The notes under the pieces were generated by a model, which was given only the letters and a program-made list of their open reading frames with translations, was not told the origin of the DNA and made no database searches. A DNA stretch of 64,000 bases, from the IMG/VR virus record IMGVR_UViG_3300035698_017721, positions 1 to 64,000 of that record. The stretch is one strand, 5' to 3'. Of the stretch, positions 19,253-52,123 are shown in pieces (within the stretch, counting starts at the first letter, position 1; every line of letters starts with the position of its first letter). The translations under genes were made by a program, and so were the position numbers. The stretch is from a virus.

Positions 19253-19301
19253 AAGCACTAATGGTATATACATTATATACAAAAATTAACCGTTAGTTGC
19301 A

Positions 19302-28000: not shown

Positions 28001-29029
28001 CTAAGAATTTTCCACAGTTTCTGTTAATTGATTTAGGAACTCGAGGTGTTTTGGTCCAAATTCTTCCCAAGCGAGTCCCATTGCTTTGAGGTCGTAATGC
28101 TTCACTATTGTAGCACAATCAATGTAATCTTCTCTCGATATGATTGCCCCTAATTCAGTATTGGATTTTAACCACTCTTCATTTGTTGATGGATCATATG
28201 CTTTACCGAATAGGTTTTTGATAAAACCTCTTTCAGCAGACAATGCCTCTTTACCTACTGATACAAGAGCAGACAGTTTCAATCGTAGAGAATCAGCTTT
28301 CAACTTTGCTGGCAAGTACCCTATCACATAGCTGCTATCGGCAAGTTCAACTGCCAATTTCATATCATGTGTTGAGAAGATGATTGTGTTCAACTCATGC
28401 TCATTTTGGTATAGATCAAATGATGCTTTACAGCTTTTGATATTACCTACATCCAATCCTGAGAATGGTTCATCAAATGCCATGAAATGACCAGCTGAAA
28501 GAATCTGCTCAATGATCGCTGTTCGTTGACGTTGACCACCAGACAATTCACAAGGATATTGATCTTTCTGTTCGTTCAATCCCCAAGTCTCAAGATATTT
28601 GTATGCAACGGTTTCCTTCTCATCAGTCGACAAGTCGGTTCGTCTCTGTGCAGACATCAATATGTTGAACACCGTTTTGTTACGGAACAGTGTATATTTT
28701 TGATCAACATATCCTATGTCACCTTCATGAACAATCTTTGCATCAGTTAGATCATCAGGTGTAGATAGATCCGTTAGAAGTACGTTACCTGTTCTTGGCG
28801 TAACCAATCCGGTTAGTGCTTTGAACAACGTAGATTTACCTCTTCCTGATCTTCCAACAATTGCAATGGTCTGACCTGTAATAACACCAGCTCGAACCGT
28901 ATCACGTTCCAACATGTTAATGTTCTTCAGAACAGGTAGGTAGTCTTTACCATAACCATATCCACACTCAACATCTTTGAGCGAAATGATTGGTTCGGTC
29001 TCTTCGTATTTTTTTATTTCTGTATCCAT
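28001..29029 (-). CDS. ABC transporter ATPase
   Basis: Walker A GRSGRGKST, Q-loop region YVDQKYTLF, signature LSGGQRQR, Walker B HFMAFDEP and H-loop STHD are all present, so it should hydrolyse ATP. The N-terminal ~200 residues match the NitT/TauT-type (SsuB/NrtD) importer ATPases; the extra ~110 C-terminal residues have no recognised domain. ATG 29029 (MDTEIKKYEE) was chosen because a longer start would overlap the permease gene more. Pairs with the permease at 29034-29819. Confidence 0.9.
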   Translation of the reverse strand: MDTEIKKYEETEPIISLKDVECGYGYGKDYLPVLKNINMLERDTVRAGVITGQTIAIVGRSGRGKSTLFKALTGLVTPRTGNVLLTDLSTPDDLTDAKIVHEGDIGYVDQKYTLFRNKTVFNILMSAQRRTDLSTDEKETVAYKYLETWGLNEQKDQYPCELSGGQRQRTAIIEQILSAGHFMAFDEPFSGLDVGNIKSCKASFDLYQNEHELNTIIFSTHDMKLAVELADSSYVIGYLPAKLKADSLRLKLSALVSVGKEALSAERGFIKNLFGKAYDPSTNEEWLKSNTELGAIISREDYIDCATIVKHYDLKAMGLAWEEFGPKHLEFLNQLTETVENS

Positions 29030-29033
29030 TTCC

Positions 29034-29819
29034 TTAGAGTTTTGAATATCTGAATGCAATTCGTCTTGACTTGTCTAGGAAGAAGTCTAAACTCAGTCCG
29101 AGAAGCAATATAATGATCTGTAAGGCAACGATTCTACCGTGGTTTGCCATCTTATCAGAATTCTTAATTAAGAACCCTAGACCTCCGTTTGCTGCTACAA
29201 TAGATTCAACTGTTACAAGCATCATCCAAGCGATCGCAAGGTTCTGACGAATGATCTCAATTACATAATCCATTCGACCTTTAATAACGACTTCCCAAAG
29301 CACTTCCCATCGATTATAACCGAGGGTCTGTGCATGATCGAATTCCTCTTGTGAGATCTCCTTAATCATTGCCATCAAACTAGTGGTCAAAAATGTTGAA
29401 ACGAATGTTACTAGAACTAGAATTTGAATAACACTTCCTTTATCAAAGAACAAAGTAATGTAAAACGATATTCCGGTTAGTGGTAAGTATCTGAACTTAC
29501 TAATAAATGTGGTGATCGGTTTGAATAATGGTATTACAGAAAGATAAGCGAAGATCAATGATATAACTGTTGCTATTCCGATTGCTTTACCACACAATGC
29601 CAAAGACCTTCCAACATGTGTCATTAACCCACCTTTGTAAAGACCCTGAAGACCAGCTAAAACTTGTGGTCCAGTAGGAAAGATATGGGTTCCTTCTGTT
29701 AGACTATAAATAGTCCAGTAACCTAATGCACCTAGAATCCAGATGGCTGTTACCATGATCATCGATGGGGCTCTTAGAGTTCCGAACGGTGTCACTATTT
29801 GAGTTAATTCTTGTTTCAT
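29034..29819 (-). CDS. ABC transporter permease (SsuC/TauC/NrtB-like)
   Basis: About six hydrophobic segments, with an EAA-type coupling loop (EEFDHAQTLGYNRWEVLWEV) that contacts the ATPase, as in NitT/TauT-family permeases. Sits in the inner membrane. Its stop is just past the ATPase start, so the two are translated together. Substrate unknown; alkane-sulfonate, taurine or nitrate importers are the closest by topology. Confidence 0.85.
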   Translation of the reverse strand: MKQELTQIVTPFGTLRAPSMIMVTAIWILGALGYWTIYSLTEGTHIFPTGPQVLAGLQGLYKGGLMTHVGRSLALCGKAIGIATVISLIFAYLSVIPLFKPITTFISKFRYLPLTGISFYITLFFDKGSVIQILVLVTFVSTFLTTSLMAMIKEISQEEFDHAQTLGYNRWEVLWEVVIKGRMDYVIEIIRQNLAIAWMMLVTVESIVAANGGLGFLIKNSDKMANHGRIVALQIIILLLGLSLDFFLDKSRRIAFRYSKL

Positions 29820-29836
29820 CGATGTTAGATTAGGGC

Positions 29837-29864
29837 AAAAAAAAGGGGGCCGAAACCCCCTTTT
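29837..29864. terminator. intrinsic terminator (both strands)
   Basis: GGGGG / CCCCC hairpin flanked by A8 and T4 runs, between the OmpA fusion and the permease genes. Confidence 0.8.
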
Positions 29865-29879
29865 AAATACCTCAGTGAA

Positions 29880-31715
29880 TTACTGCAGAATTGTGATTGT
29901 CACTCTTCTGTTTGCTTTACGGGCAGCGAATGAATCGTTGTCCGCATTTGGGTCAAGTGGTTCAGCAGAACCTTTACCATCAACCTCTTGGAATCTCTTT
30001 ACAGTTATTCCTTTTGCAAGCAATGCTTCGGCAACCGAGTTGGCTCTATCAGCAGATAGTTTGTTGTTGACTGATGCTGATCCAGTGTTATCCGTGTGAC
30101 CGATGATCGCAACTTTAGTCTGTTCAGCTTGAACTAATAGACTAGTGATGGTCTGAATGTCATCGAATGACGTTGGTTGGATATTTGCATTACCAATTGC
30201 GAAGTTAATGTTCCATTGACCTTCAGCAAGTTTTGTAGTTTTTGCCTTAGAGTAATCAATCGTTACTTCTTCAGTTGAGATTGCTCCCTTAACTGCTTTC
30301 AAGTATGTAAGATCTACTGCTTCAGCATAAGGTACAACACGTGGAACTGAAGAGTTGAAGTCGAATGGATTAAGATCTACAAGGTATCCACCAACTTGGT
30401 TGTAAACTGCTTGGTATCTATCGATTCCATCAGATCCAAGTCCGTAGTATTGTTTTACATCAGCGTGATTTTTAGCTCTTGTTCCACCCATGTTGTAAGA
30501 TAGACCACCTTTTGAAGCAGTCTGACCTTGGAACATATCGTACCAGTAGTCTCCACCTTTGTCCATACCGAAAGTAGCATCAACTAAGTCTCCACCTGTT
30601 CGTCCCCATTCTTCATACAACTTGATCTGATTAGCTGCTGTAAGAGAAGCCTGAAGTACACCAGTAACTTTTTCTGGGTTCTGCTCTGCCCATTCCTTAA
30701 CCATGATAAGTGTTGTCCACATTTGGTTTGGAAAGTCTGCAGTAGAAGCTACATCAGTATATCCAGTAACTGCTTCAAATACCATTACATCACCAGGTGT
30801 CCATGTTGCACAACCATCGATTTTCTTGTCAATGGTTTCATTAGACACTGTTCCATCAGGATTCTTCACTTTAAGTGTAACAGTAAATCCTGCAGATTCA
30901 GATGAGATAAGTTCCTTAGCTGACATGATATAATCATCATCCGCTGATGGGAATATATTCACTGCATTTGGATCGTATGTAGTAAAGTCAGAGTTAACGG
31001 CCATTCCATTTGCGAAACAGAAGTTCACTAACGTTACCCAGTCACCATCTCCAGGAACAACTGAGATTAAAGATCCTAGCATAGTCTGAGGATTCTTTTT
31101 CCAGCTTGCTGGACCAATTACTTTGTCCTCACCGAAAGATGCTCCACCAACACAACCTACATTAACAACATGGTATTTACCCTCACCGAATTTCTCATCG
31201 ATTGCTGCTTGTAATGTACTGATATACCAAGGTGCTCCATCACCCATTATCATCACACCTGCTGCGGCTTCTGATGATGAAGGGAATGCTTCACCACTAT
31301 CGAACTGCTCGATAAACTTCAGTTGCATTGCTTTAAGTTGACCAACCATATCCTGACGTTTGATCGTCAAGTTAACACCATTCAGTTCCATTAAAGAACC
31401 TTTAGTGGTTACTGCTCCACCATTTGCTGTGATAATGGCTGTCTCACCATTCCAAGCATAACCCGCTATTGTCCACGCTGGGTAATTCGTGTTTGCCGTG
31501 ATTGAAGCCATGTCTGTTGGCAAAGGCAATAGATCTGTTGGAAGTGCATTGTCCAACGTTTTTTGGTTAAGCGTAAGAGCTTCACCAGTGATAGATTCAC
31601 CTACCATAATTCCCGGAGCAAACACTACTGCGATTGCAACGAGTACCGCGATACCAAGAGCAACTACTACTCCCTCATAACCGGTCTTCAAATTTGTTTT
31701 TAGAATTCTTCCCAT
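29880..31715 (-). CDS. solute-binding-domain / OmpA peptidoglycan-binding fusion, membrane anchored
   Basis: 611 residues. An N-terminal TM anchor (residues ~16-36, VVVALGIAVLVAIAVVFAPG) is followed by a ~430-residue periplasmic domain that resembles type-II solute-binding proteins of the NitT/TauT class (for example DVMVFEAVTGYTDVAST). A C-terminal OmpA-like domain (GHTDNTGSASVNNKLSADRA and ARKANRRVTI) should bind peptidoglycan. Thus a ligand receptor is tied to both inner membrane and cell wall. It adjoins the permease and ATPase genes. Such fusions are rare in phages. The binding pocket and ligand cannot be read from sequence. Confidence 0.85.
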   Translation of the reverse strand: MGRILKTNLKTGYEGVVVALGIAVLVAIAVVFAPGIMVGESITGEALTLNQKTLDNALPTDLLPLPTDMASITANTNYPAWTIAGYAWNGETAIITANGGAVTTKGSLMELNGVNLTIKRQDMVGQLKAMQLKFIEQFDSGEAFPSSSEAAAGVMIMGDGAPWYISTLQAAIDEKFGEGKYHVVNVGCVGGASFGEDKVIGPASWKKNPQTMLGSLISVVPGDGDWVTLVNFCFANGMAVNSDFTTYDPNAVNIFPSADDDYIMSAKELISSESAGFTVTLKVKNPDGTVSNETIDKKIDGCATWTPGDVMVFEAVTGYTDVASTADFPNQMWTTLIMVKEWAEQNPEKVTGVLQASLTAANQIKLYEEWGRTGGDLVDATFGMDKGGDYWYDMFQGQTASKGGLSYNMGGTRAKNHADVKQYYGLGSDGIDRYQAVYNQVGGYLVDLNPFDFNSSVPRVVPYAEAVDLTYLKAVKGAISTEEVTIDYSKAKTTKLAEGQWNINFAIGNANIQPTSFDDIQTITSLLVQAEQTKVAIIGHTDNTGSASVNNKLSADRANSVAEALLAKGITVKRFQEVDGKGSAEPLDPNADNDSFAARKANRRVTITILQ

Positions 31716-34491: not shown

Positions 34492-35562
34492 ATGGATTAC
34501 ATATCAATTATCAAAGATTATCACGAATCAAATAAATCTAACCGTAACTGGAATAGTGAACTTAGCAAAATATTAAGAGATTCATCTAACTATGATGAGT
34601 TTAAAACAGAAACATTTCCTTTTTTAGATCAACCTCTAGACAAACAAATAATATGGCATGTGTTAAATGATGATTATGTAGAACATATATGTAGAAATTG
34701 TAATACCGTATTGGTTTTTCATCGCCAAGTAGACTATCCTAAGTTCTGCTCGAAACAATGTACTGCTAAATATACGGCAGATCATATGACCGATGAAGAA
34801 AAATGTTTGATGGTAAAAAATCGTAAAAAAACATGCCTTCAAAAGTATGGGTTCATATCAGCGTCACAAAACGATACAGTGAAAGTAAAAAAAGAAAAAA
34901 CTAGTTTAAAGAAATACGGAGTGAAAAATGCAATGCAAAATAAGACAATTAGAACAAAACAATTAAAGTCTATGCAAAAAACTAATATGGAACGTTATGG
35001 CACAAAATCCACATTAGGTTTGGATTCAACCCGAGAAAAATACAAAGAAACCATGTTAGAATTGTATGGCGTTGATCATCCCACTAAAAATTCAATGATT
35101 AGAGATAAAGTAAAACAGACAATGATAGATCGGTATGGAGTTGAATATTACGCACAATCAAAAGATTGGTATAAAAGATATAAGAATCATGAATGGGGTA
35201 ATAAGTACAAAGATTATATTACGCCAAGTGGTATAGTCTTAAGAATACAAGGTTATGAAAATTTCGCATTAGATAAACTGTTTGCATCATATCAAGAAGA
35301 TGACATAATCACAACCAAGATACATAACGTCACAGGAAAAATACGATACTCGTTTGACAAGAAAACAAAAACGTACACGCCAGATATTTATATCAAATCT
35401 GAAAACAAAATTATTGAAGTAAAATCGCAATTCACATATGATGTACAAATTAACAAAAACGAATTGAAAGCCCAAGCATGCGTTGACTTAGGATTTCAAT
35501 TCGAATTTTGGATCATTGATAGAAAAGGACGTATTACAGAGCGTTTTGTAAATGTCTCTTAA
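34492..35562 (+). CDS. PD-(D/E)xK-type homing endonuclease beside the polymerase N-terminal gene
   Basis: N-terminal Cys pairs (CRNCNTV, FCSKQC), then repeats of the form TCLQKYGFISASQND, TSLKKYGVKNAMQNK, TNMERYGTKSTLGLD and MLELYGVDHPTKNS, a known DNA-binding module of phage homing enzymes. The C-terminal nuclease shows TYTPDIYIKSENKIIEVKS, a D...ExK core. It overlaps the 3-prime end of the polymerase N-terminal gene tail to tail by 29 nt. This placement suggests the split of the polymerase gene was caused by or is guarded by this element. Confidence 0.8.
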   Translation: MDYISIIKDYHESNKSNRNWNSELSKILRDSSNYDEFKTETFPFLDQPLDKQIIWHVLNDDYVEHICRNCNTVLVFHRQVDYPKFCSKQCTAKYTADHMTDEEKCLMVKNRKKTCLQKYGFISASQNDTVKVKKEKTSLKKYGVKNAMQNKTIRTKQLKSMQKTNMERYGTKSTLGLDSTREKYKETMLELYGVDHPTKNSMIRDKVKQTMIDRYGVEYYAQSKDWYKRYKNHEWGNKYKDYITPSGIVLRIQGYENFALDKLFASYQEDDIITTKIHNVTGKIRYSFDKKTKTYTPDIYIKSENKIIEVKSQFTYDVQINKNELKAQACVDLGFQFEFWIIDRKGRITERFVNVS

Positions 35563-36955
35563 GATAATCCATTTCTTTGTTTATATCAAGCATTTTGCCC
35601 TTTGTATCTTTCCTTTGTCCGTAAAGATCTTGTAAAATAGTCCGTAAAACAGAATCTTGTGTGTCATCGAAAAGGCTACCATTAGCACAAACAACTTGAC
35701 CTTCTCCTGCAAGACCTGTTGGGCTATTTCCTTGGTAAGCCTCTGGTGAAATGTTCCATTGCATCATGACATTTGGATACAAACTTGAGAAGTCATAACA
35801 AGACACCCACTCATGCATACCTGTAACGGGTTCTTTCACATAAGCACCAACGAAGTGGGCTTGTTGAATAAGATCCTTATCCGTATCAATAAATACTTTA
35901 CCTCTCTTGTAAAATTCACGACACATAAGGGCTTCTTGAACCCATACAGGTGAGAATGCTCGATTGATTTCTACCTGAGCAACATCCGCCAATTTGAAGA
36001 ACGTTGTCATAGTATTCAGTGCCTGATCAATATAGTGGACCAGAACAGCATCAACAGCATTATAGAAAATGAACTTCGTGAAGTCTTTCTCGTATAGGTC
36101 CTTCAATGTTCCAGGATACTTGATCTTACCAATACCAGTTGCTCGTTCACCAATGTAATCGAGTTGGTGGTTTTCCTTGATTTTAATAACCCTATCCCAC
36201 TTCTTAACAATATCCAGGTAGTCAATGATCAACTTGTGCTGAGGAATTCTTGCTTTACCTTTCAATGGACCTGCCATAGCTGGATTGATTTTCAAACGAT
36301 CTGCTCTGTTCACCAGATACTTCCAATCAAAGTCCAAGAAGAACCAACCTGTAATACATGGCATCTTGTCCATGAGCTTACCGAAGAATGTATAGAGCAT
36401 ATCATACTCAGATTCAAACTTCACATATCGGAACGTCCACTTATCTTCTGGGTATTTGTCGAAGTGCTTATCAAGGTCTGCTTGGATCTTATCATGATCA
36501 TAATCAGTCATATCCTTAAGACCAAGAACCGTAACTTTCTTATCAGTACAGTTTGCAATGGCAATGGATGTAACCATGTTCAATGCATGTTCAGGGTCAG
36601 GGAAGCCATCAGTAATCTCAGTCTCAATATCAATTGAGAACTTGTTAGGGATGTTGAACTCAAGGGCTTTTGCAATCTCATCTTTACGACGGATCAAAAT
36701 CTCTTCAATGGTATACTTGTTGATCCTAGAAGTACGAACTTTCTTTACTGGCTTACCATCCCAAGATTCAAACTCATCTGATGGTTTATCCAATCTACCT
36801 TGTGCATACTCCCAGATATATCCATCTTCATCTTGATCTAAAGGAACCGCCAAATAAGCCGTGTTACCTTCTTTATCAAAATAGGATATGTTCAGTTCTT
36901 CTAACTGACCAGATCTTGGGTCACCGTTTCTTCTTACTTCTATATCTACAATCAT
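35534..36955 (-). CDS. DNA polymerase (gp43-like) N-terminal piece: exonuclease and motif A
   Basis: 473 residues. Exo I is FSIDIETEI (Asp109, Glu111), Exo II is GWFFLDFDW and Exo III is YNAVDAVLV. Polymerase motif A is CYDFSSLYPNVM. The protein stops shortly after a helix equivalent to the T4 gp43 fingers base (LYGQRKDTKGKMLDINKEMD). The rest, motif B onward, lies about 31.7 kb away at 3128-3850 and 934-1941. No intein or splice residue is seen at this break, so association is probably non-covalent. Split gp43 genes are known in some T4-like phages, but not with a further intein split. It shares an ATGA overlap with the P-loop gene. Confidence 0.9.
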   Translation of the reverse strand: MIVDIEVRRNGDPRSGQLEELNISYFDKEGNTAYLAVPLDQDEDGYIWEYAQGRLDKPSDEFESWDGKPVKKVRTSRINKYTIEEILIRRKDEIAKALEFNIPNKFSIDIETEITDGFPDPEHALNMVTSIAIANCTDKKVTVLGLKDMTDYDHDKIQADLDKHFDKYPEDKWTFRYVKFESEYDMLYTFFGKLMDKMPCITGWFFLDFDWKYLVNRADRLKINPAMAGPLKGKARIPQHKLIIDYLDIVKKWDRVIKIKENHQLDYIGERATGIGKIKYPGTLKDLYEKDFTKFIFYNAVDAVLVHYIDQALNTMTTFFKLADVAQVEINRAFSPVWVQEALMCREFYKRGKVFIDTDKDLIQQAHFVGAYVKEPVTGMHEWVSCYDFSSLYPNVMMQWNISPEAYQGNSPTGLAGEGQVVCANGSLFDDTQDSVLRTILQDLYGQRKDTKGKMLDINKEMDYLKRHLQNAL

Positions 36956-39194: not shown

Positions 39195-39806
39195 ATGATA
39201 ATCTATATCACAACAAATAAAATAAATGGAAAGCAATATATTGGTCAAGACTCAACCAATAATCCTAATTATTTTGGATCGGGTACAATCATTAAAAAGG
39301 CCATCAAGAAGTATAGTGTTTCAAACTTCGAAAAGACGATTTTAGAAACTTTACCAACTTATTCTAACAAGGATGACTTAAATGAAAGGGAGCAGTATTA
39401 TATCCAGAAATTTAATGCGGTTAAAGATTCGAATTTCTATAATATAGCAGAAGGTGGGGGTGGATGTATCGGATATAAGCATACCAAAGAACATATACAA
39501 AAATTTAAGACCATAGAACGCACGCCTGAATGGTGCATGAAAATTTCAAAGTCTTTACAAGGTGTTCCACATTCAAAAGAACGAAAAAGGAAAAATTCAG
39601 AATCGCAAATAGGGTTACAGGCAGGAAATAAAAATCCGCGGGCCCGACGATATGTTATTACAGATCCTAATGGAGAACTTTATGAAGTATATGGAGAACT
39701 CAAAAAATTTTGTAAATCTAAAAATCTTTCTCACGGATGTATGATGAAGGTCGCAAAAGGTAACCAGAAGCACCATAAAAATTGGGTAATAAAATATAAC
39801 GATTAG
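39195..39806 (+). CDS. GIY-YIG homing endonuclease
   Basis: Starts straight into the catalytic domain (IIYITTNKINGKQYIGQD, FGSGTIIKKAIKKYSV, LNEREQYYIQKF, Glu for metal binding). NUMOD3-like (GYKHTKEHIQKFK) and NUMOD1-like helix (KKFCKSKNLSHGCMMKVAKG) DNA-binding parts follow. It diverges from the dUTPase gene, its probable target neighbourhood. Confidence 0.9.
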   Translation: MIIYITTNKINGKQYIGQDSTNNPNYFGSGTIIKKAIKKYSVSNFEKTILETLPTYSNKDDLNEREQYYIQKFNAVKDSNFYNIAEGGGGCIGYKHTKEHIQKFKTIERTPEWCMKISKSLQGVPHSKERKRKNSESQIGLQAGNKNPRARRYVITDPNGELYEVYGELKKFCKSKNLSHGCMMKVAKGNQKHHKNWVIKYND

Positions 39807-40338: not shown

Positions 40339-41667
40339 TTACGTTGTGATTTCGATTAGGTACTTGATAGTCGTCTGATTCGTGTGGTAAGTAATGAACT
40401 CATTGTTTCGGAGATCAGCACCACCTTTGGCGAATACTGAATCATATCCTTCGCTGTTCATCTTCGCTTGGTTCAATTGACTATGACTTGAACTCCAGTT
40501 CGTAATTTGTTTTTGACGTCCTTGGTGAATCTCATACAAGGCGAGCATTGCGGTATTCTTACCACCTGATGCCCAATAAGAACCTCTTAGAGAAGTATAA
40601 CCAATTGACTTCTGAGCCTTGTCAGCGAAGTAAACACCATGACCAAACATTGATCCTGTGAGAACCGCATTTGAAGGTCTAATCATAAGTCCTTGTTGGA
40701 AGATACTCCACCAGTTCTCATTACGAGATCCGTGCCATAGAAGATCAGTTTTGGTATTCTTGGCATTCTTAAGAAACAACTTCATGTTTCGTTCAGTCAC
40801 CTTATTTCTTACTCGAACGGCATTCACGAATTGACGAGCGTTAGAACCCATTTTCGCTTTGATCATTTTGATCTCATCAGCAGTACAAGGGAATGCATCA
40901 AGTCCAACATTACGAAGCATGTCATACTCCTTAGTCTTCTTGACTTTCGTATCGTCACCCTCTTTTACTTCTGGTTTGGTATTCATTGCAACCTGACCAG
41001 CCATAACGTCCAATGCATCTTGTTCCTTTGAGAACATTGCTTTGGCATCAGAAAGGGAGTTCTTGTTAAGTGCTTTGTCTTTAACTTCTTCTTCACCTTG
41101 AATAAGGTGAAACTGAACTTTCTTCATTTTCCTTGGGATCACTTGATAAAGTGAAAGGAGTTGATCGTTAATATCCTTGATCGTTCCACCAACTTTCAGA
41201 TCCAGTGAGATTTTGTTCAGAATTGATTGGGCTTCATCTACCTGAGCTTGAGTTACTGCTTTGGCTGAGATAGTATAGTTTCTTTCAACAGAGGCTTGGG
41301 CTAGTTTTAGAAGATTCTCAATGAACCTACAAACATCTTGTGGTCGTTCAGAATGAAACAAAGATCCTTTTGGATTGCCGTTTGTATCATCATCATCTTG
41401 TGTGACACTTGCTTCAGCAACCAAATGGGTTACATCAGTATAAGGATGTGGTTTCTTACTTGCTTTGGTTTTACTCTTAATAGTAGAGTCCCATTTTGAC
41501 ATGGCGTAAACTCTTTCAGAAGGTTTACCGCCTTCAACTCGTCCATATTCTGCACGGAATTCAGATGCATTGATCTGAGTCAAATTATAAAATTTATTGT
41601 TGTTGTCCCCGGATACACACATTAAGCGTACAACCTTCATCCCTTGATCATCTAATACTTCAGCCAT
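40339..41667 (-). CDS. WGR-domain PARP-like ADP-ribosyltransferase
   Basis: 442 residues. A WGR-type domain near residues 12-75 (AEYGRVEGGKP), a helical PARP-regulatory-like region in the middle, and a catalytic domain with the H-Y-E triad: His312 (LLWHGSRN), Tyr346 (GHGVYFAD) and Glu423 (NNEFITY). The triad fits poly- or mono-ADP-ribosylation from NAD. The WGR domain normally senses nucleic-acid breaks. It is preceded by a doubled promoter. Paired with the ADP-ribosylglycohydrolase at 13775-14695 it may modify host targets reversibly. Confidence 0.9.
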   Translation of the reverse strand: MAEVLDDQGMKVVRLMCVSGDNNNKFYNLTQINASEFRAEYGRVEGGKPSERVYAMSKWDSTIKSKTKASKKPHPYTDVTHLVAEASVTQDDDDTNGNPKGSLFHSERPQDVCRFIENLLKLAQASVERNYTISAKAVTQAQVDEAQSILNKISLDLKVGGTIKDINDQLLSLYQVIPRKMKKVQFHLIQGEEEVKDKALNKNSLSDAKAMFSKEQDALDVMAGQVAMNTKPEVKEGDDTKVKKTKEYDMLRNVGLDAFPCTADEIKMIKAKMGSNARQFVNAVRVRNKVTERNMKLFLKNAKNTKTDLLWHGSRNENWWSIFQQGLMIRPSNAVLTGSMFGHGVYFADKAQKSIGYTSLRGSYWASGGKNTAMLALYEIHQGRQKQITNWSSSHSQLNQAKMNSEGYDSVFAKGGADLRNNEFITYHTNQTTIKYLIEITT

Positions 41668-44771: not shown

Positions 44772-45395
44772 TTACTTCTTAGGAGCAGGAGCAGACTTCA
44801 AAGCCTGAACTGGAAGGATCTCAGTGAACAATGTTGAGATTGAAGTTTTGAACTTCTTAGCAAGCATTGGAAGAATACCGATTGTTCCTTTGGCGATTGA
44901 GTGAGTAACTGTCTGAGAGATGCCATTAGCGAAAGCATCTTTAACTTCTTGCTTCAATTTAGAAGCGGCAATGGCTTCAGAGATTGCTTGACCATGCTCG
45001 TTAATCATTGCAGAGTCCAAAGTGAAAGTTACGGTTTCGTCAATCAAGTCTTCACCATAAGTCTCAGTCAAATATTCAACGCCACCTTCAGGAAGTTTGA
45101 TGTAACGATCTTGTGCCATATAAAGAAGTGAATCTCCAGCAGCACTTGAAAGAATGAAACTTTCAGGTTGACGTCCTGTTGCTTCATATGCCTTAACATA
45201 TTGTTCTGCAGCATATGGCTTTAGAATTCCTTCAGCTTGTTTCAATTTTGCTGTTGCTGTTGCAGCGGCTTTCTTTGCAGCAGTATAATCTGCAAGAGCT
45301 TGAACCTGAACTGGGTCAGTACAAACGTGATTTTCTTTGTCTGCAGTTGAAGCGGTTGCTTTCTTAACTGTCTTAGCTTGGGCGAACATGTTCAT
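44772..45395 (-). CDS. conserved-looking phage protein (207 aa)
   Basis: N-terminal coil (LADYTAAKKAAATATAKLKQ) and a C-terminal globular part with EDLIDETVTFTLDSAMINEH. Ala/Lys-rich. It has a good promoter and a long leader. Resembles phage proteins of unknown role that precede DNA-metabolism genes. No signal peptide. Confidence 0.6.
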   Translation of the reverse strand: MNMFAQAKTVKKATASTADKENHVCTDPVQVQALADYTAAKKAAATATAKLKQAEGILKPYAAEQYVKAYEATGRQPESFILSSAAGDSLLYMAQDRYIKLPEGGVEYLTETYGEDLIDETVTFTLDSAMINEHGQAISEAIAASKLKQEVKDAFANGISQTVTHSIAKGTIGILPMLAKKFKTSISTLFTEILPVQALKSAPAPKK

Positions 45396-45432
45396 TTTTA
45401 GTTGTCTTTAGTTGTTGTGACTTGATTACATT

Positions 45433-45442
45433 GTAAAGATAC
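45433..45442 (-). promoter_or_regulatory. Bacteroidota-type -7 promoter element
   Basis: CGTATCTTTAC class element 37 nt before ATG 45395; CTTCCGTATG at the -33 side. Confidence 0.55.
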
Positions 45443-45540
45443 GAATAATATCGACATACGGAAGTGTTTCCGCAAATCTTTTTTCTTCTTTTTTACAAAG
45501 GCTTGATTTCCAACACATTGAAAATAAACTATTTTCGGCT

Positions 45541-45549
45541 GATATATAA
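45541..45549 (+). promoter_or_regulatory. GATATATAA motif (putative late promoter)
   Basis: 31 nt upstream of the PrsW-like gene start at 45581. Confidence 0.5.
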
Positions 45550-45580
45550 TAAGGGAAGAATTGATCTAAAAGCAAGGAAG

Positions 45581-46303
45581 ATGATAGAAAATAATATAGT
45601 GCCATTTGTACTTACTTTTCTACCTGCCCTCGTGTATGCTATCATATTATATGCATCGTTTCCAAGGAAGACCGTTAGTTTAAAGATCTCATTTCTTCAT
45701 TTTTTGATGGGTGCTATCAGTACAACGGCGGTCCTTGCCTTCCAATGGATCTTTCCTGAATTTCAAAATCCGGTATCTAGGAACTTCATATTTGCCATGT
45801 TCTCGATGGCATTCTTACAAGTAGCATTCTTAGAAGAGTCAATGAAACTCTTGTTCTATAAGTTTACTGAGATGTATCGAGGAGTCATTCCAAGTATGTA
45901 TTCGGTGATGTTCTATGCTATGTCGGTCTCAATGGGATTTGCCGTTGTTGAGAATATGAGATATGCCGGAAGATATGGTGATGAGGTATTGATCGCCCGG
46001 GCAACTACTGCCGTTGTATTACATATGCTTACAGGTTTGATGATGGGATATTTCATATCTCTAGGCATCTGGAAAAAGAAGAAACACTTATATAAGATAC
46101 TCGGATTAGGTGCAGCAACGTTCATACATGGATTGTATGACTTCAATCTAATGATTTCAGAACAATGGAGATGGCCAGGTCTAATGATTAAGACCGGTTT
46201 TGGTATTGATACAAAATGGATATTGGGTGCAGGAATGGTTTGTACCGCTTTGATGTTTTATCACATTGGGATACTAAGAGCACGACGATTCAGAAAAAAG
46301 TGA
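45581..46303 (+). CDS. PrsW-family intramembrane protease
   Basis: 240 residues, about seven hydrophobic segments. Signature residues are present: AFLEESMKLLFYK (Glu-Glu and Lys), GFAVVENMRYA (Glu-Asn), HMLTGLMMGYF (His) and HGLYDF (His, Asp). These match the conserved metal or active-site set of PrsW/CPBP-like membrane proteases. I chose ATG 45581 over an upstream one because the promoter-like motif lies between. A plus-strand gene in a minus-strand block, it might cut host regulators or processing targets. Confidence 0.8.
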   Translation: MIENNIVPFVLTFLPALVYAIILYASFPRKTVSLKISFLHFLMGAISTTAVLAFQWIFPEFQNPVSRNFIFAMFSMAFLQVAFLEESMKLLFYKFTEMYRGVIPSMYSVMFYAMSVSMGFAVVENMRYAGRYGDEVLIARATTAVVLHMLTGLMMGYFISLGIWKKKKHLYKILGLGAATFIHGLYDFNLMISEQWRWPGLMIKTGFGIDTKWILGAGMVCTALMFYHIGILRARRFRKK

Positions 46304-46305
46304 TC

Positions 46306-46560
46306 TTATCTATGTCCACCTGCTGAAGGTGCAGAAGACTTCATATTCTCTGGAAAATTCGTAAACTTCCCATGAACGAAGTAAGGTACTTTTTCACAAG
46401 ATGTACAAGTCAATATAGGAATCTCGATCTCTCGATCCTCTGCTTGAGCAGTTTGAATTTTAGATGCGAATTTAACCATAACGGATGGAGTAAATACTTT
46501 ACCACCACATTCGCAGTTTATCCAAGGTAAATCGTTGATACTAATTTTCGGTAATTCCAT
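46306..46560 (-). CDS. small Cys-rich protein (84 aa)
   Basis: INCECGGKVF and LTCTSCEKV form two Cys pairs typical of a zinc ribbon; the C-terminus is Pro/Ser/Gly-rich. Faces the PrsW-like gene tail to tail. Role unknown. Confidence 0.6.
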   Translation of the reverse strand: MELPKISINDLPWINCECGGKVFTPSVMVKFASKIQTAQAEDREIEIPILTCTSCEKVPYFVHGKFTNFPENMKSSAPSAGGHR

Positions 46561-46753
46561 TATTTTCTTCTAGGTAAGGATTAAGTATGAGGTCTATGAA
46601 ATATACAAAATCATCCGGATCATGTTCGCCAGTACAAATATAATGACCAAACCATTCAGATTGAAAACGTGCCGCATCTTCTGCTTTAAGATGTGGCTTA
46701 ACGTCTTTCCAAAGTTTTTCTGCTTTGTGTTGATTGTCTTCTCTCCTACACAT
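46541..46753 (-). CDS. hypothetical protein (70 aa)
   Basis: Short soluble helical protein with a CxxR at the N-terminus (MCRREDNQHKAEKLWKD). Overlaps the next gene by 20 nt. Last minus-strand protein gene before the tRNA region. Confidence 0.55.
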   Translation of the reverse strand: MCRREDNQHKAEKLWKDVKPHLKAEDAARFQSEWFGHYICTGEHDPDDFVYFIDLILNPYLEENNGITEN

Positions 46754-46847
46754 ACATTGACTAATGAACTCTTTTAAATCCCTTTGGAATTTTTTCTTAA
46801 TCTGAAACTGTTGTCGGATTCATATGTGCTTGACTTTAACAAGAACT

Positions 46848-46935
46848 AGAATGAGGGCGTCGCTATTGATAATATCGTTCTGCATAAACGAGCAGTGTCT
46901 TTCAACCGTACCAAAGCTAAGCCCTCACTTAGTCT
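46848..46935 (+). ncRNA. possible structured RNA
   Basis: An outer stem TGAGGGC / GCCCTCA closes ~85 nt that contains CGTT / AACG and CTGC / GCAG hairpins. It is followed directly by a T-rich terminator. No frame of note. Might be a small RNA; the strand is inferred from the terminator's T run. Confidence 0.35.
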
Positions 46936-46960
46936 CCTCCTTGCGGGAGTAGTCTTTTTT
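46931..46960 (+). terminator. intrinsic terminator
   Basis: CTCC / GGAG hairpin then TTTTTT on the plus strand. Ends the possible RNA. Confidence 0.6.
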
Positions 46961-47056
46961 ATTTCTCAAACCTGGAAACGCTCTATTGAGAATTACGCTT
47001 CTTCATTATGGTCACTTGCGGACGGGAAAAGATTATAAAAACGCCGCACTACGTGG

Positions 47057-47149
47057 TGGTTCTTGTAGGATTTGAACCTACGATCCTCCAGATCGTTTTT
47101 CAACTATCTGGTGCTCTGCAATAAATTGCCCAACTGAGCTTTAAGAACC
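47057..47149 (-). tRNA. tRNA-like gene with enlarged D-loop and anticodon loop (Phe-like GAA?)
   Basis: Acceptor GGTTCTT / AAGAACC, D-stem GCTC / GAGC and T-arm GTAGG-TTCAAAT-CCTAC are all normal. The D-loop holds an extra self-complementary GCAATTTATTGC. The anticodon region is 24 nt instead of 17: CCAGAT / ATCTGG closing AGTTGAAAAACG, which contains TTGAAAA as in tRNA-Phe. It may be a defective tRNA, a decoy or a frameshift-type suppressor. Confidence 0.5.
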
Positions 47150-47261
47150 TTAAATTGATCCCCTGTTTCCGAGGCAGTAGGAACGTGCTTTAGAGACACG
47201 GCCGATTTACACAAATTACATCTTAAGTTAAAGAAGCAAGGTAAGATTGTTACGCTCTTTC

Positions 47262-47942
47262 ATGAGCCAGACATTGACAACCAAGCAACATCTTTATGTA
47301 TTTACGGAACTACTGAAGTTCGTAGATCACTTAGTCATTTGCCATTATCACTTAAAACAGCGATCAATGAAAATGTCTAAGCTAATAAATGACATGTCTA
47401 ATTGTGAACAGACACAAGGCATGTCGGTACTTGAGCACGGAGAATCAGTGCTTCGGTATTACGAAGATCTCATTAACCATTTACAGAATGATACTCCATT
47501 ACAATTAGAATGGAAACTCCCTGAATGGATTTATGATCACAAAGATTACATCCTAGAAAACTTAATGTCCGATGATATTATCAAGGACTATCAGATCTTC
47601 CATGATTGTGGTAAGCCATATTGTCGAACAGTAGATGAGAACGGACGTCAACACTTCCCGGACCATGCAAAGGTTTCTGAGCAGACTTGGTTAGATGCCA
47701 GTGGAGATACACAGGTTGGTAAGTTGATCGGAATGGATATGGACATTCACTTATTAAAGGATGTGGGTGTTGCAGAGTTTGCTAAAAGACCAGAAGCGAT
47801 GACATTATTGTTGACGGGACTCAGTGAAATTCATTCTAATTGTGCTATGTTTGGTGGTATAGATTCTACATCATTCAAGATCAAGTGGAAACAAATAAAT
47901 AAGCGTGGTAACGCCATCTTTAAAGAACTTCTTGTAAGATGA
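47262..47942 (+). CDS. HD-domain phosphohydrolase-like protein
   Basis: About 226 residues. SVLEHGESV supplies a first His, QIFHDCGKP the HD pair, and HFPDHAKVSE a further His; EIHSNCAMFGG follows. This is the HD-superfamily metal site order and resembles a phage protein group found near RNA ligase and tRNA genes. The substrate may be a nucleotide or RNA terminal phosphate. ATG 47262 is preferred to 47247 or 47367, uncertain. First gene of the plus-strand block. Confidence 0.7.
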   Translation: MSQTLTTKQHLYVFTELLKFVDHLVICHYHLKQRSMKMSKLINDMSNCEQTQGMSVLEHGESVLRYYEDLINHLQNDTPLQLEWKLPEWIYDHKDYILENLMSDDIIKDYQIFHDCGKPYCRTVDENGRQHFPDHAKVSEQTWLDASGDTQVGKLIGMDMDIHLLKDVGVAEFAKRPEAMTLLLTGLSEIHSNCAMFGGIDSTSFKIKWKQINKRGNAIFKELLVR

Positions 47943-47951
47943 AAAACACAA

Positions 47952-48071
47952 GGCACATCGTGAATATGAATGCGAGGAACAACTGCAGAAAGTACTCGTT
48001 GGATTATAGGCTCACGGAGGTTGGAAGTAGCCCTTCCACACACCTTGGGGGTTCGATCCCTTCATGTGCTG
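47952..48071 (+). tRNA. possible interrupted or decayed tRNA
   Basis: GGCACAT and ATGTGCT can form an acceptor stem 105 nt apart. A T-arm (GGGGG-TTCGATC-CCTTC) and CA end precede the next tRNA. No standard D-arm or anticodon arm is visible between; a long hairpin (GGAAG / CTTCC) occupies the middle. Probably a remnant or an unusual RNA. Confidence 0.3.
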
Positions 48072-48074
48072 CAA

Positions 48075-48152
48075 GTCAGAATAGCTCAGTTGGTAGAGCA
48101 CTTGATTACTTCGGTAATCTTGAGGTCGGTGGTTCGAACCCATCTTCTGACA
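48075..48152 (+). tRNA. tRNA-like gene with remodelled anticodon arm
   Basis: Acceptor GTCAGAA / TTCTGAC, D-arm GCTC / GAGC and T-arm GGTGG-TTCGAAC-CCATC are intact. The anticodon arm is 24 nt: GATTAC-TTCG-GTAATC, a 6-bp stem with a UUCG tetraloop, flanked by CTT / TTGAG. No ordinary seven-base anticodon loop can be drawn. Confidence 0.5.
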
Positions 48153-48157
48153 CAATT

Positions 48158-48231
48158 GCCTGGATAGCTCAGTTGGTTAGAGCGTTGGAGCTTCGGGCTC
48201 TGAAGGTCGTGGGTTCGAACTACTCCGGGCA
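48158..48231 (+). tRNA. tRNA-Arg (UCG)
   Basis: Acceptor GCCTGGA / TCCGGGC; D-arm GCTC / GAGC; anticodon arm TGGAG-CTTCGGG-CTCTG gives anticodon UCG. The T-stem is one base short (GTGG / CTAC). Reads CGA codons. Confidence 0.75.
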
Positions 48232-48239
48232 CAACAAAT

Positions 48240-48313
48240 GGGGCTGTAGTTCAGCTGGTAAGAACGCCGATCTCTAAAATCGGATGTCGCGGGTTCGAGC
48301 CCCGTCAGCCTCG
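48240..48313 (+). tRNA. tRNA-Sup (CUA), amber suppressor
   Basis: Acceptor GGGGCTG / CAGCCTC; anticodon arm CCGAT-CTCTAAA-ATCGG gives CUA, which reads the UAG stop codon. D- and T-arms normal. The amino acid charged is not clear. Confidence 0.85.
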
Positions 48314-48318
48314 CAAAT

Positions 48319-48393
48319 GGGAATATAGCTCAGTCCGGTTAGAGCGGGAGTCTCTAAAACTCTTCGTCGTGGGTTCGAATCCCACTATTCCTT
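48319..48393 (+). tRNA. second tRNA-Sup (CUA)
   Basis: Acceptor GGGAATA / TATTCCT; anticodon arm GGAGT-CTCTAAA-ACTCT; anticodon CUA. Sequence differs from the first, so it is a second gene and not a recent copy. Confidence 0.85.
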
Positions 48394-48511
48394 CTACATT
48401 TATTAACCCTAAAAACAAAGCCATGAAATAGGTAAGCAGAGGACCATAATTTGAATCGAGTGAATCGAAGAGTACAAACAATTCAAACAACAAAATTCAA
48501 AAACAATAGTC

Positions 48512-48913
48512 ATGAACGACACAACAGTTAAAGCAGAAAAAATAATCGTAGAAGCAACACCAGAAAACGTGCAAATGGTTCTCGATAAAATCAAGGAATT
48601 CACAACAGAGAAGGGATACCAGATCAAAGGTGATTTCAAGTTCAACGGAAAACTCGAGTTTCCAAGTCGTAACCAAGAAAAGGTTCTTCGTAGATACCTC
48701 ACCAGATTAAACTGGAAGGTAACAATGTCGCAAGCAAACCGATTCTTACACGCTCTCAAGAGATACACCGATTTTGAAGGTCGTATCGAAATCTCAGAAC
48801 GTGAAAAAGGAATCCAGAAAGCTCGTAAGGACTGGAAGTATGCAAGAGAACGTCAAGAACTTTTGCTCAAGTCTTACAAAGAAACCAAAGCAGGTTTCTA
48901 CCCAAGTCTGTAA
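48512..48913 (+). CDS. hypothetical protein (133 aa)
   Basis: Basic, helical C-terminal half (EREKGIQKARKDWKYARERQ). Follows the tRNAs and is closed by a strong terminator. No motif recognised. Confidence 0.6.
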   Translation: MNDTTVKAEKIIVEATPENVQMVLDKIKEFTTEKGYQIKGDFKFNGKLEFPSRNQEKVLRRYLTRLNWKVTMSQANRFLHALKRYTDFEGRIEISEREKGIQKARKDWKYARERQELLLKSYKETKAGFYPSL

Positions 48914-48932
48914 GCACATCTTCATAATAATG

Positions 48933-48959
48933 AAAAGGGCCTCGAAAGAGGCCCTTTTT
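48933..48959 (+). terminator. intrinsic terminator
   Basis: AAAAGGGCCTC-GAAA-GAGGCCCTTTTT, a strong bidirectional hairpin. Confidence 0.9.
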
Positions 48960-48973
48960 CGTTTAACCAAAAC

Positions 48974-48982
48974 GATATATAA
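48974..48982 (+). promoter_or_regulatory. GATATATAA motif (putative late promoter)
   Basis: 3 nt before the Nudix gene ATG at 48986. Confidence 0.5.
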
Positions 48983-48985
48983 GAT

Positions 48986-49480
48986 ATGGAACATCTTAAA
49001 AAATGGGAGAGCTTCAACGAAGCGTACGATTATGATAATAATTCTGGGGAAGAATTCTGGGGAGATGCTGGAGCAGGTGTTTTACCTATCTGTAAAGGTA
49101 CCGGTAGAATATTACTTGGCCTAAGATCTGGACTTGTTAACGAACCGTATACCTGGGCCGGGTTCGGCGGTATGATTGACGACGATGAAGAATTAGCAAA
49201 CCCAGAGCTTGCGGCCAGAAGGGAGTTTGAAGAAGAAGCTCATTATATGGGGAAGGTAGACATGATTGAGTGTGAACAATTTACCAGTGATGGAGGAGGA
49301 TTCAAATATTACAATTTTATAGGTGTGATCGATGAAGAGTTTACTCCTGTATTATCTGATGAATCAGACGATTATCAATGGGTTACTCTGACGGAATTAC
49401 ACGATCAGGATAATAAACACTTTGGACTAGTTGATGTAATGAAAAAGAACATGAACATAATTAAGAAGTACGCAAAATGA
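48986..49480 (+). CDS. Nudix hydrolase
   Basis: Nudix box GGMIDDDEELANPELAARRE followed by FEEEAHYMG supplies the metal-binding glutamates. 164 residues. Hydrolyses nucleoside-diphosphate-linked compounds. The N-terminus MEHLKKWESFNE matches a tag shared by nearby proteins. ATGA overlap with the kinase gene. The substrate could be an (d)NTP, ADP-ribose or NAD. Confidence 0.9.
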   Translation: MEHLKKWESFNEAYDYDNNSGEEFWGDAGAGVLPICKGTGRILLGLRSGLVNEPYTWAGFGGMIDDDEELANPELAARREFEEEAHYMGKVDMIECEQFTSDGGGFKYYNFIGVIDEEFTPVLSDESDDYQWVTLTELHDQDNKHFGLVDVMKKNMNIIKKYAK

Positions 49481-50232
49481 AGCATTTAAAAAAATTTATA
49501 TCTATGTTTGAATCGGAGAAGATTCTCGATCTGGATGAGTCAATTGCCGATGAACAAATACACAAAGCCATCTTTATGATTGGTGGTGCAGGGTCCGGTA
49601 AGTCGACAGCAGCCAAGAAAATGTTTGAAGGTACTTTGAAGTTCGTTGACTCTGACAAATTCGTACAGTTCCTTTTGAAGAAGAAAGGTCTATCCCTGGT
49701 TTTCGATAAATCAAAGCCTGAAGAATATGCAGCAAAAACTAAATTCCGTCGCCAAGCAAAAGAATTAGAGACTTCCAAATTTGGACATTTGGTAGATGGC
49801 TTACATAGTATCGTATTAGATGGTACTGGTAGAAACCGCGATAAGATCAACCGTCAGTATGATGCGTTACTTGGACTAGGCTACGACTGTTACATGATTT
49901 ATATCAACACGGATGTTGAAGTTGCAGTAGAACGAAATGCCAAGCGAGAACGTGTAGTTCCCGAGGATATTGTAAGAGCACAGTATCATGATTTACAAGC
50001 TAATATTCCGGATTATAAAAAAAAGTTTGGTGCTAATTTCTTTGAATATAAAACTGGTGAGACTGATAAAACGCTGAATAAAATCTCAAATAAGATATTA
50101 CAAGCACCTTATGAAAATGAAGCTGGATTTGTATTAAGAGATCTTATGAAGGAAAATCATTTGAAATATCTACATGAACTGAATGTGCAACAGTTAGGAA
50201 CGTTAATGCGGAACATTAGATTAACGGATTAA
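49477..50232 (+). CDS. P-loop kinase-like protein (zeta-toxin / polynucleotide-kinase type)
   Basis: Walker A GGAGSGKST, then FVDSDKF, LDGTGRNRDK and a LID-type Arg-rich region (ERNAKRERV). It resembles AAA_33/zeta-type kinases that act on small nucleotides or polynucleotide 5-prime ends. N-terminal MKHLKKFISMFESE is the shared tag. With the ligase-like and HD proteins it could form an RNA-repair set, as Pnk/Rnl do in T4. Confidence 0.7.
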   Translation: MKHLKKFISMFESEKILDLDESIADEQIHKAIFMIGGAGSGKSTAAKKMFEGTLKFVDSDKFVQFLLKKKGLSLVFDKSKPEEYAAKTKFRRQAKELETSKFGHLVDGLHSIVLDGTGRNRDKINRQYDALLGLGYDCYMIYINTDVEVAVERNAKRERVVPEDIVRAQYHDLQANIPDYKKKFGANFFEYKTGETDKTLNKISNKILQAPYENEAGFVLRDLMKENHLKYLHELNVQQLGTLMRNIRLTD

Positions 50233-50246
50233 CTGCGTATGATTTG

Positions 50247-50255
50247 GATATATAA
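50247..50255 (+). promoter_or_regulatory. GATATATAA motif (putative late promoter)
   Basis: Upstream of the membrane protein at 50278, just past the kinase stop. Confidence 0.5.
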
Positions 50256-50277
50256 AGAGAAATATAATGAAAGAAGG

Positions 50278-50643
50278 ATGAAGTCAGTGCTGTTGGTAAT
50301 GTTAGTATTTTTAAGTACTTCGGTAAACGCTCAAGTAGATCCACCCGATAGTGCAGATGAATTTGGTTGGTTACGTTGGGCCGTAATATTACTTTTAGGT
50401 TTTGTTGGTACCGGTGGTGCAACATTCTTTGCTTTTGTAAAAGGAGCACATGAAAGTCGAATTAAAGATAAGGATGCAGAAATTAAAAGACTTGCAACAA
50501 GAGCAACTGAACAGCAACATGCTTTAGAACGTCTACAGACTGATAAAGATGCCTTGAACAAGGATATGCAAGAGAAAGTTATTCCAGCTCTAACGAGCGC
50601 AAGCGACCTTATTAGAACCTTCTTAAATAGCAGTAAGAAATGA
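50278..50643 (+). CDS. membrane protein with coiled-coil tail (121 aa)
   Basis: Starts MKSVLLVMLVFLSTSVNAQ, a signal peptide, then a TM segment (WAVILLLGFVGTGGATFFAF) and a coiled coil (RIKDKDAEIKRLATRATEQQ). This signal-TM-coil layout resembles inner-membrane spanins or holin-accessory proteins, but the family is not certain. Start 50278 chosen over 50239 because the promoter-like motif lies between. Confidence 0.65.
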   Translation: MKSVLLVMLVFLSTSVNAQVDPPDSADEFGWLRWAVILLLGFVGTGGATFFAFVKGAHESRIKDKDAEIKRLATRATEQQHALERLQTDKDALNKDMQEKVIPALTSASDLIRTFLNSSKK

Positions 50644-51059
50644 GAGGTCAAACAGAAGATATTAGACATCAGCTTGATGTCGCTTGTAAAGAACTAACTA
50701 GCTGCGTTCATGATTTCAAGATCCAATGTGGTCTTGATGATTGGAAAGAGAAAGTTGTGTCGATCACAGATCAGTTTACAGAGATCTTTCCAGACGTTAT
50801 GGCCAAGGTTGCATTTCCAGAGAAAGCAAAAGGTAGTCGTACGATCATTATAAAGGCTAAAGCGGGATCTAAGTTAGATCCACACAAGATGATTCCTCTT
50901 CGCTTTGTTTATGTTGTCCACGGGGACCAGAGAGATGAAAGAGGTGTAATAGTTTTGAATGAGGATGAGGGAATGTCTATTCAACCATTTGTTGAATCAT
51001 CCATGTATTTTAAAGTGGATACGAAGTTGATCATGGAGATTGAAGATGAAACCATATAA
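50640..51059 (+). CDS. hypothetical protein with cupin-like C-terminal half (139 aa)
   Basis: The stretch FVYVVHGDQRDERGVIVLNE and GMSIQPF has the spacing of a small cupin barrel, but the metal His residues are not clear. N-terminal helical half (RHQLDVACKELTSCVHDFK). Overlaps the previous gene by 4 nt and precedes a PAS protein. Confidence 0.5.
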   Translation: MRGQTEDIRHQLDVACKELTSCVHDFKIQCGLDDWKEKVVSITDQFTEIFPDVMAKVAFPEKAKGSRTIIIKAKAGSKLDPHKMIPLRFVYVVHGDQRDERGVIVLNEDEGMSIQPFVESSMYFKVDTKLIMEIEDETI

Positions 51060-51061
51060 TT

Positions 51062-51487
51062 ATGAATGAAGTACAACAAAAGGTTCAAGTCGAAGTAGAT
51101 CACCTTACAGGTTTAATAAGTGAACTACAACAGGTAAATCTGTTTCTAACATTATTAGAAAATCCTGATTGTCCCATGTTCGTTGCCTATGTTCACCCGG
51201 ATGGTCATTTTCGTTACGTCAATAAAGTGTTTGCTAATGCCCTTGGATATTCTAAGGAAGAAATTTATAGTAAACATTGGGCCGAATTCATGAAGCCTGC
51301 GGAATCTGCTCGAGTACGAGCAGATTATCTTGCATCGAGTGATTCTAAGACACCATTTCTAAATTACGATACAATGTACCAAACCAAAGACGGTAAGGAT
51401 CTACCTTTAAGATGGTACACAAGTCCAATGCATAATCACAGTAACGAAGAGAATGTTACGATTTGTTTTTCAATGATAATTGATTAA
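51062..51487 (+). CDS. PAS-domain protein (141 aa)
   Basis: Residues ~35-141 match a PAS fold: MFVAYVHPDGHFRYVNKVFA, NALGYSKEEIYSKHWAEF and a strand set DLPLRWYTSPM. There is no kinase, GGDEF or other output domain, only a short N-terminal coiled coil, so it may bind a partner. PAS proteins are unusual in phages; the ligand is unknown. Confidence 0.75.
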   Translation: MNEVQQKVQVEVDHLTGLISELQQVNLFLTLLENPDCPMFVAYVHPDGHFRYVNKVFANALGYSKEEIYSKHWAEFMKPAESARVRADYLASSDSKTPFLNYDTMYQTKDGKDLPLRWYTSPMHNHSNEENVTICFSMIID

Positions 51488-52059: not shown

Positions 52060-52095
52060 GTTACCTTATATCAACGGAAAAAGGAAATGTTTCCG

Positions 52096-52104: not shown

Positions 52105-52123
52105 ATAAACGTATCCTATTAAG

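Follow-up and report, generated by a model that had tools for sequence, protein, structure and literature searches.

Family B replicative polymerases usually keep their catalytic core in one polypeptide, and the question raised by the present locus is how such an enzyme has come to be encoded by three genes, the first of which is separated from the other two by 31.7 kb, as measured from its stop codon to the start of the next piece. The window, i.e. the whole stretch of viral DNA analysed here, covers 64 kb out of the 65,174-base linear record IMGVR_UViG_3300035698_017721, the record itself being an incomplete fragment. All three genes lie on the minus strand. The N piece (35534–36955; 473 aa) consists of the N-terminal domain, the 3′–5′ exonuclease, palm motif A (D388) and the first fingers helix, with a helix at its very end; it is matched by the Pfam families DNA_pol_B_exo1 and DNA_pol_B (positions 18–145). 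The M piece (3128–3850), matched by positions 147–232 of DNA_pol_B and then by Intein_splicing, starts with an extein (3497–3850) in which the second fingers helix, motif B (NSIYG) and motif C up to DTD were recognised from sequence and Pfam. The C piece (934–1941) begins with the C half of an intein, beyond which positions 580–839 of PHROG 262 are matched, its extein (934–1809) providing, according to sequence and PHROG 262, the remainder of the palm, the thumb and the C terminus that ends with NALF. With the exonuclease acids and motifs A, B and C present in order across the pieces, the enzyme can be assigned, judging from its sequence, to the T4-type (gp43) family B polymerases. When the whole record of 65,174 bases was searched for the family, two PF00136 places were obtained, one per polymerase half, a count that applies to the fragment only, the full genome possibly holding more.

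Concerning the position of the first break, the N-piece profile aligns with residues 103–505 of RB69 gp43 and the C-half profile with residues 526–889, the break mapping between 505 and 526, i.e. at the tip of the fingers—which we take to be residues 471–572—between their two long helices. RB69 gp43 is the best PDB match by sequence for both halves, and it is also the top PDB match found by Foldseek for the AlphaFold model of the window N piece (mean pLDDT 88.2), in which the last long helix spans residues 436–472 and is followed immediately by the stop codon; the predicted folds cover this piece and the sliding clamp described below. In the alignments, prepared separately for N rows and C-half rows, residues D109, E111, D210 and D302, presumably the exonuclease acids, as well as D388, presumably the catalytic acid of motif A, are invariant in 29 N rows, and DTD of motif C is invariant in 15 C-half rows. 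Residue 205 of the window N piece is a phenylalanine (GWFFLDFDW) at the place where the relatives keep a near-invariant asparagine after GW, the next aspartate being retained. An earlier note, made from the letters alone, had located the exonuclease motifs and motif A at 35534–36955 and motifs B and C with the thumb at 934–3850, had proposed a three-piece enzyme with one piece some 32 kb from the rest, and had seen a break in the fingers with no intein residues; all of this agrees with the Pfam and PHROG matches, with the recovery of the N, M and C pieces, with both RB69 alignments and with the lack of any Pfam intein match in the N piece. What the same note called the N-terminal third is, however, just over half of the enzyme, i.e. 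473 of about 882 spliced residues (54%), the spliced C half having about 409 aa.

The neighbourhood of the two halves indicates which of them was displaced. A gene at 7143–7910 (minus strand), located 3.3 kb upstream of the M piece with other genes between them, has a product that is, by its predicted fold, a PCNA-like sliding clamp, the AlphaFold model (mean pLDDT 93.6) having PCNA as its top Foldseek matches; by sequence, its profile gave no convincing match in the PDB and its hhalign comparison with gp45 was weak (32% probability). A homologue of this clamp is found upstream of the C half, at a distance of up to 1.8 kb, in 77 of the 78 split loci centred on the C half (from the best 80 of 406), the exception offering only 142 bases upstream of the C half. 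It is therefore the N half that has been separated, the C half having retained its place near the clamp gene. The interval between the halves contains a gene for a topoisomerase subunit A-like protein (10549–11979, minus strand; Pfam DNA_topoisoIV) and one for a subunit B-like protein (17450–19282, minus strand; Pfam Toprim and HATPase), both assigned also by synteny and both present in other relatives, and, at 28001–31715, genes for an OmpA-like protein and for the permease and ATPase of an ABC transporter, carried inside this phage and having homologues in G011, the sister contig of the window in the tree described below. Since the OmpA and ABC-transporter genes are common to the window and G011, and the topoisomerase genes to the window and other relatives, the larger gap of the window looks like added genes, not like a rearrangement. 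The same phage fragment also carries genes for a PARP-type ADP-ribosyltransferase (40339–41667) and an ADP-ribosylglycohydrolase (13775–14695).

The relatives were gathered from IMG/VR using queries from split N pieces, the alignment of these pieces serving as the query and the best 80 of 350 relatives being taken. In 79 of these 80 N loci the N piece ends within the same stretch, the 80th one, L081, being a continuous polymerase; it should be noted that the 79 loci do not represent independent events because many of them are near-copies. The search from the C side led, for the best 80 of 406 loci, to 78 split cases, one fused (again the L081 contig) and one unclassified (L186). When the fused protein of L081 was used as the query, it retrieved itself, seven loci matching the N half only (38–52% identity) and 72 loci at 27–30%, the best of which span both halves; the 40 loci read from this search comprise six of the N-half loci, all of them split, 33 single frames of 705–885 aa, and L305, the frame of which was unreadable. 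The searches for relatives with MaF61, whose polymerase is intact, and with the window N piece alone yielded no match.

Fifty contigs of the 80 N loci (best 80 of 350), up to 482 kb long and chosen for being the longer ones, were searched over their whole length, each of them giving one N match and at most one C match. Both halves are present in 39 of the 50, the C half being positioned downstream and on the same strand in all 39, at a distance of 3,953–24,142 bases (median 14,855); the comparable measure for the window is 33.7 kb. Eleven contigs are without a C match, ten of them having 1.5–21.6 kb left downstream; in G042 (IMGVR_UViG_3300020204_000022, locus L072), an N piece is present and neither a C half nor a clamp match was found in the 55.6 kb downstream, the C half having been either moved farther or lost. 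The order and strand, identical in 39 of 39 contigs holding both halves, rule out chance as well as the assembly rearrangement that the earlier note had named as its refuter. With the break occupying the same stretch in 79 of the 80 N loci (best 80 of 350), the comparison with relatives proposed there supports the position of the break, but turns the split from an oddity of this phage into a feature common to nearly all sampled relatives; since they carry the same break, the arrangement is old and inherited, and does not represent damage.

The same cut was identified also in much larger genomes. It is present in LR756500 (462 kb), where some 10 kb separate the halves, and in 15 Lak records, the sequences of which were translated with code 15; the C half lies about 7 kb upstream of the N half in Lak-B2, and the two are about 220 kb apart on opposite strands in Lak-A1. 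Four distinct records of 634–735 kb likewise have the halves on opposite strands, at recorded distances of about 101, 132, 281 and 618 kb; in the last case, a circular record would reduce the distance to about 116 kb. The Lak records and those of 462–735 kb have one place per query. According to the available part of the study by Al-Shayeb et al. (PMC7162821), Lak phages and the genomes above 634 kb described there belong to one clade, Mahaphage, the large records quoted here being, to judge from their size, probably among those genomes. At the other end of the range, PAU, pT24, MA9V-1 and PTm1 possess the cut with 1.2–2.4 kb between the halves.

The evolutionary relationships were inferred from a concatenated tree of N and C halves (46 rows, 800 columns), comprising 31 of the 60 rows holding both halves—mainly near-copies having been dropped—and, from the intact frames obtained with the L081 query, 15 of the 30 in which motif B was recognised. 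G023 (locus L049) and Aes508 do not occur in the trees as they have no C-half row, in the case of Aes508 because the M piece, which contains an intron, had not been put together. The 26 split rows are grouped together with MaF61 and L081 on one side of a branch supported at 100/100; the sister contig of the window, G011, has the same break and no intein, and PTm1 belongs to the same clade as the window. The fused gene of L081 (IMGVR_UViG_3300000563_000024, locus 9980–12613), in which both halves form one gene of 877 aa on a single 26-kb metagenomic contig, is positioned inside the split clade, within a set of seven rows (100/99) and adjoining the split L067, whereas the intact MaF61 takes no firm place at the base of that clade. 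No second fused copy inside the split clade was found by the searches from the N side (best 80 of 350), from the C side (best 80 of 406) or among the loci obtained with the L081 query. In the AU test, performed with a 36-row tree, the grouping of the 31 split rows without both L081 and MaF61 was rejected (p 0.0198), whereas their grouping with L081 but without MaF61 was not (p 0.476). The tree requires at least three changes between the split and intact states, MaF61 being given no fixed place, although such counts cannot tell gain from loss. Were the L081 gene an ancestral one that had never been cut, the tree would, by our count, call for some eight independent fissions at the same position. 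The tree favours one old fission, and the scenario preferred here is one fission on the stem and a re-fusion in L081, MaF61 standing outside or being a second re-fusion.

Two further features of L081 touch on this re-fusion. Its fingers have 75 residues, not far from the N tail (24) and M head (43) of its sister L067 taken together—the lengths for split rows coming from a first automatic measure, mis-anchored in several rows, and those for intact rows having been remeasured—whereas the fingers of 30 intact IMG/VR relatives have 37–53 residues; this is only suggestive, since the intact T4 (82) and MaF61 (70) have long fingers, too. The L081 gene is located directly after the genes for topoisomerase B, topoisomerase A and the clamp-like protein, i.e. 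in the slot that the C half occupies in G038 and G023, as though the N half had been relocated to that place.

The second break is of a different kind. The M piece ends with the N half of a split intein (3128–3496), which has serine as its first residue, is followed by a stop codon and scores 39.2 bits with Pfam Intein_splicing (cut-off 35.8); the C half of the intein (1810–1941), terminating with VHN before Ser+1, reaches 20.4 bits and is below the cut-off. Between them, also on the minus strand, there is an endonuclease-like gene (1914–3116; PHROG 22677), the similar genes of PTm1 and Aes508 being annotated as VSR endonuclease and VSR-like, respectively. Fractured genes with a split intein and an endonuclease gene between its halves were reportedly described by Dassa et al. 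in 2009, and the layout seen here is of that type, with the intein halves in separate genes, the endonuclease gene between them and HN preceding the serine. Among the 39 C matches, a split intein with a related endonuclease gene occurs in one (G023) and is absent from 38, where open frames of 382–424 aa span M and C (29 of the frames having been read and nine judged by their length); split inteins at the same point are also present in LR756500, the two Lak genomes that were read closely and PTm1, as well as in Aes508 according to its annotation. With the intein being absent from most two-piece relatives, the three-piece state would therefore have arisen by a split intein landing on an already two-piece enzyme, and the break looks older than the intein.

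As to the origin of the first break, one candidate is a gene of the DUF7487/homing-endonuclease type (34492–35562, plus strand; Pfam DUF7487 and PHROG "homing endonuclease"), which indeed overlaps, as noticed earlier, the 3′ end of the N piece, covering its last 29 bases on the opposite strand. A local and recent cut of the polymerase of this phage by that gene, or by a rearrangement bringing it, could also draw on the DUF7487 genes situated within 1 kb of the N 3′ end or the C-half 5′ end in five of the 20 records holding the family—the window, LR756500, Lak-A1, PTm1 and G005—against 0.78 expected (P 0.0007); this post hoc enrichment is a lead only, because four of the five had been noticed before the test, and, furthermore, for the G records the C-half 5′ ends had been estimated, in rounded form, from the coordinates of the matches, and G027, G028 and G029, all counted among the 20, are near-copies. 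The family occurs only elsewhere in the other 15 of the 20 records, and 19 of the 38 records searched gave no DUF7487 match. The cut itself is shared by 79 of the 80 N loci (best 80 of 350), and the same number, searched with their flanks, have no match to the window gene, the single match (L036) being 3.4 kb away; the break is likewise present in the sister contig G011, the 482 kb of which gave no DUF7487 match. A recent local cut is thus largely refuted and, in our opinion, most unlikely, and endonuclease insertion as the sole cause of the break was rejected, since relatives show the break without such a gene nearby. Three further endonuclease-like genes are encoded on the plus strand of the window, one of the NUMOD3/Vsr type (5381–6241), one related to the intein-associated endonuclease (19302–20435) and one of the GIY-YIG type (39195–39806).

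Alternatively, the halves might be united in the RNA through a trans-spliced split intron, a possibility for which the group I intron annotated in the M piece of Aes508 and, as far as the available text of PMC12363816 goes, the group I introns interrupting many genes of Jug phages could be quoted; in the window, however, the Rfam matches are tRNAs only—an intron too divergent for Rfam would escape—and in the relatives the N pieces end with a stop codon in the same stretch and the C halves have start codons of their own, which leaves this possibility as the least probable of those considered. Only slightly more credit, as a very unlikely alternative, is given to the idea that the N and C pieces have become independent enzymes, one an exonuclease acting on its own and the other a remnant, with the genome replicated by another polymerase. 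A split minimal Pol III alpha does accompany the family B polymerase in the group 2.2 phages, including Lak-B8 and PTm1, according to the accessible part of Iyer et al. (PMC7824862), but motif A in the N piece and motifs B and C in the C half, needed by neither function alone, are all conserved, and one relative carries the halves fused. TAG recoding as the cause of the break was rejected because the N and M pieces end in TAA and reading TAG as a residue brings no gain in coding density over positions 1–45000 (0.851 to 0.843), the corresponding change for 45001–64000 being from 0.677 to 0.710. The window does contain two amber-reading tRNAs with the anticodon CTA (48240–48394), yet reading TAG gives no clear gain in coding density, and TAG still ends nine of the 73 frames of at least 100 aa.

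We thus consider it highly probable that the polymerase of this locus is a T4-type family B enzyme from a lineage of huge phages and that its gene was cut a single time, long ago, at the tip of the fingers. The C half would have remained beside the sliding-clamp gene, while accumulating genes would have separated the N half from it, the two becoming unlinked in some genomes; being translated separately, the halves would most likely fold into a stable heterodimer. Each piece would contribute one of the two antiparallel fingers helices, and the catalytic aspartates would come from both, motif A from the N piece and DTD from the M piece. In the window phage, a split intein with its endonuclease gene would later have entered motif C of the C half, so that two of the three pieces would be spliced in trans and the third would join them non-covalently. 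From the sequences, we infer that the pieces are expressed, spliced, assembled and active, one joint being made by association and the other by splicing; that they work together is very likely, because the motifs are conserved and a fused relative exists. A broader proposal, offered tentatively as a possibility that we would not yet favour, is that a deep clade of huge and jumbo phages is defined by a replicative family B polymerase encoded for good by two unlinked genes, this state having originated by a single fission, outlasted a several-fold growth of the genomes and their rearrangement, and been undone at least once when the N half was transferred to the locus of the C half; the separation may even be selected, e.g. 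through a destroyed homing-endonuclease target in an essential gene, or through separate expression.

A catalytic core made of two products, whose genes have drifted apart and yet been kept, represents a natural test of the tolerance to a cut at the fingers tip, and offers a ready-made split polymerase for the bench with the fused L081 as its natural control. As either half, taken by itself, is annotated as a "DNA polymerase", counting copies or building phage trees from one of them can mislead. In the literature, the available text on MA9V-1 (PMC10537231) presents both halves as separate polymerases with no comment on a split, and that of Iyer et al. (PMC7824862) reports, for the group including Lak-B8 and PTm1, a split of Pol III alpha but none of PolB. 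The term "DNA polymerase" is absent from the main texts of PMC7162821 and PMC6784885, and none of its three mentions in PMC8346664 concerns a split; among the matches listed, which mostly do not cover subscription journals, no paper title refers to a clade-wide PolB fission. For Jug phages, the polymerase genes are described in the part available of PMC12363816 as often split by endonuclease sequences.

Among known systems, the precedent in T4-like phages to which the earlier note had pointed does exist. In Aeromonas phage 25, gene 43 is divided into two coding regions, and the proteins encoded by them, 43A and 43B, copurify and have polymerase activity, as stated in the accessible portion of Petrov, Ratnayaka and Karam (2010; PMC2988022); the split gp43 of phages 25 and 44RR is described there as being encoded by adjacent genes, with which a seg endonuclease gene or an untranslated sequence is associated, whereas the halves are not neighbours in the window (31.7 kb) or in its relatives (4–24 kb in the 39 contigs). 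Three-piece gp43-type polymerases are already annotated in the Aeromonas phage Aes508 and in PTm1. In the former, the order is gp43A, HEG, gp43B-1 (with the intron and the N-intein), a VSR-like ORF and gp43B-2 (with the C-intein); the C-terminal tail of gp43A aligns with the N tails studied here, the C extein begins at the aligned serine and an endonuclease-like gene lies between the intein halves, but all the pieces are within about 5.3 kb, the N piece is 24% identical to that of the window, and the group I intron has no counterpart found in the window. PTm1 (ORF236/239/240/241) has the N piece, the M piece with the N-intein, the VSR endonuclease and the C piece with the C-intein, its N and M pieces being, unlike those of the window, about 2 kb apart with two genes between them. 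The same two-piece polymerase is annotated as separate DNA polymerase genes in PAU (gp105/gp110), a Sphingomonas phage, pT24 (gp165/gp168), a Tenacibaculum phage as is PTm1, and MA9V-1 (ORF135/ORF138), a Chryseobacterium phage, in all of which, in contrast to the window, the halves are 1.2–2.4 kb apart and the C half is uninterrupted. The PolB of the Pseudomonas phages PA5oct and MIJ3 shares with the window, according to the available part of PMC6892783, the split intein and endonuclease gene in motif C, whereas in PA5oct the N half is continuous with motifs B and C, the intein break being the only one. A split gp43 and a fractured-gene intein are therefore both known, and what is new here is the age of the fission throughout the clade, together with the unlinked state of the halves and the existence of a fused relative.
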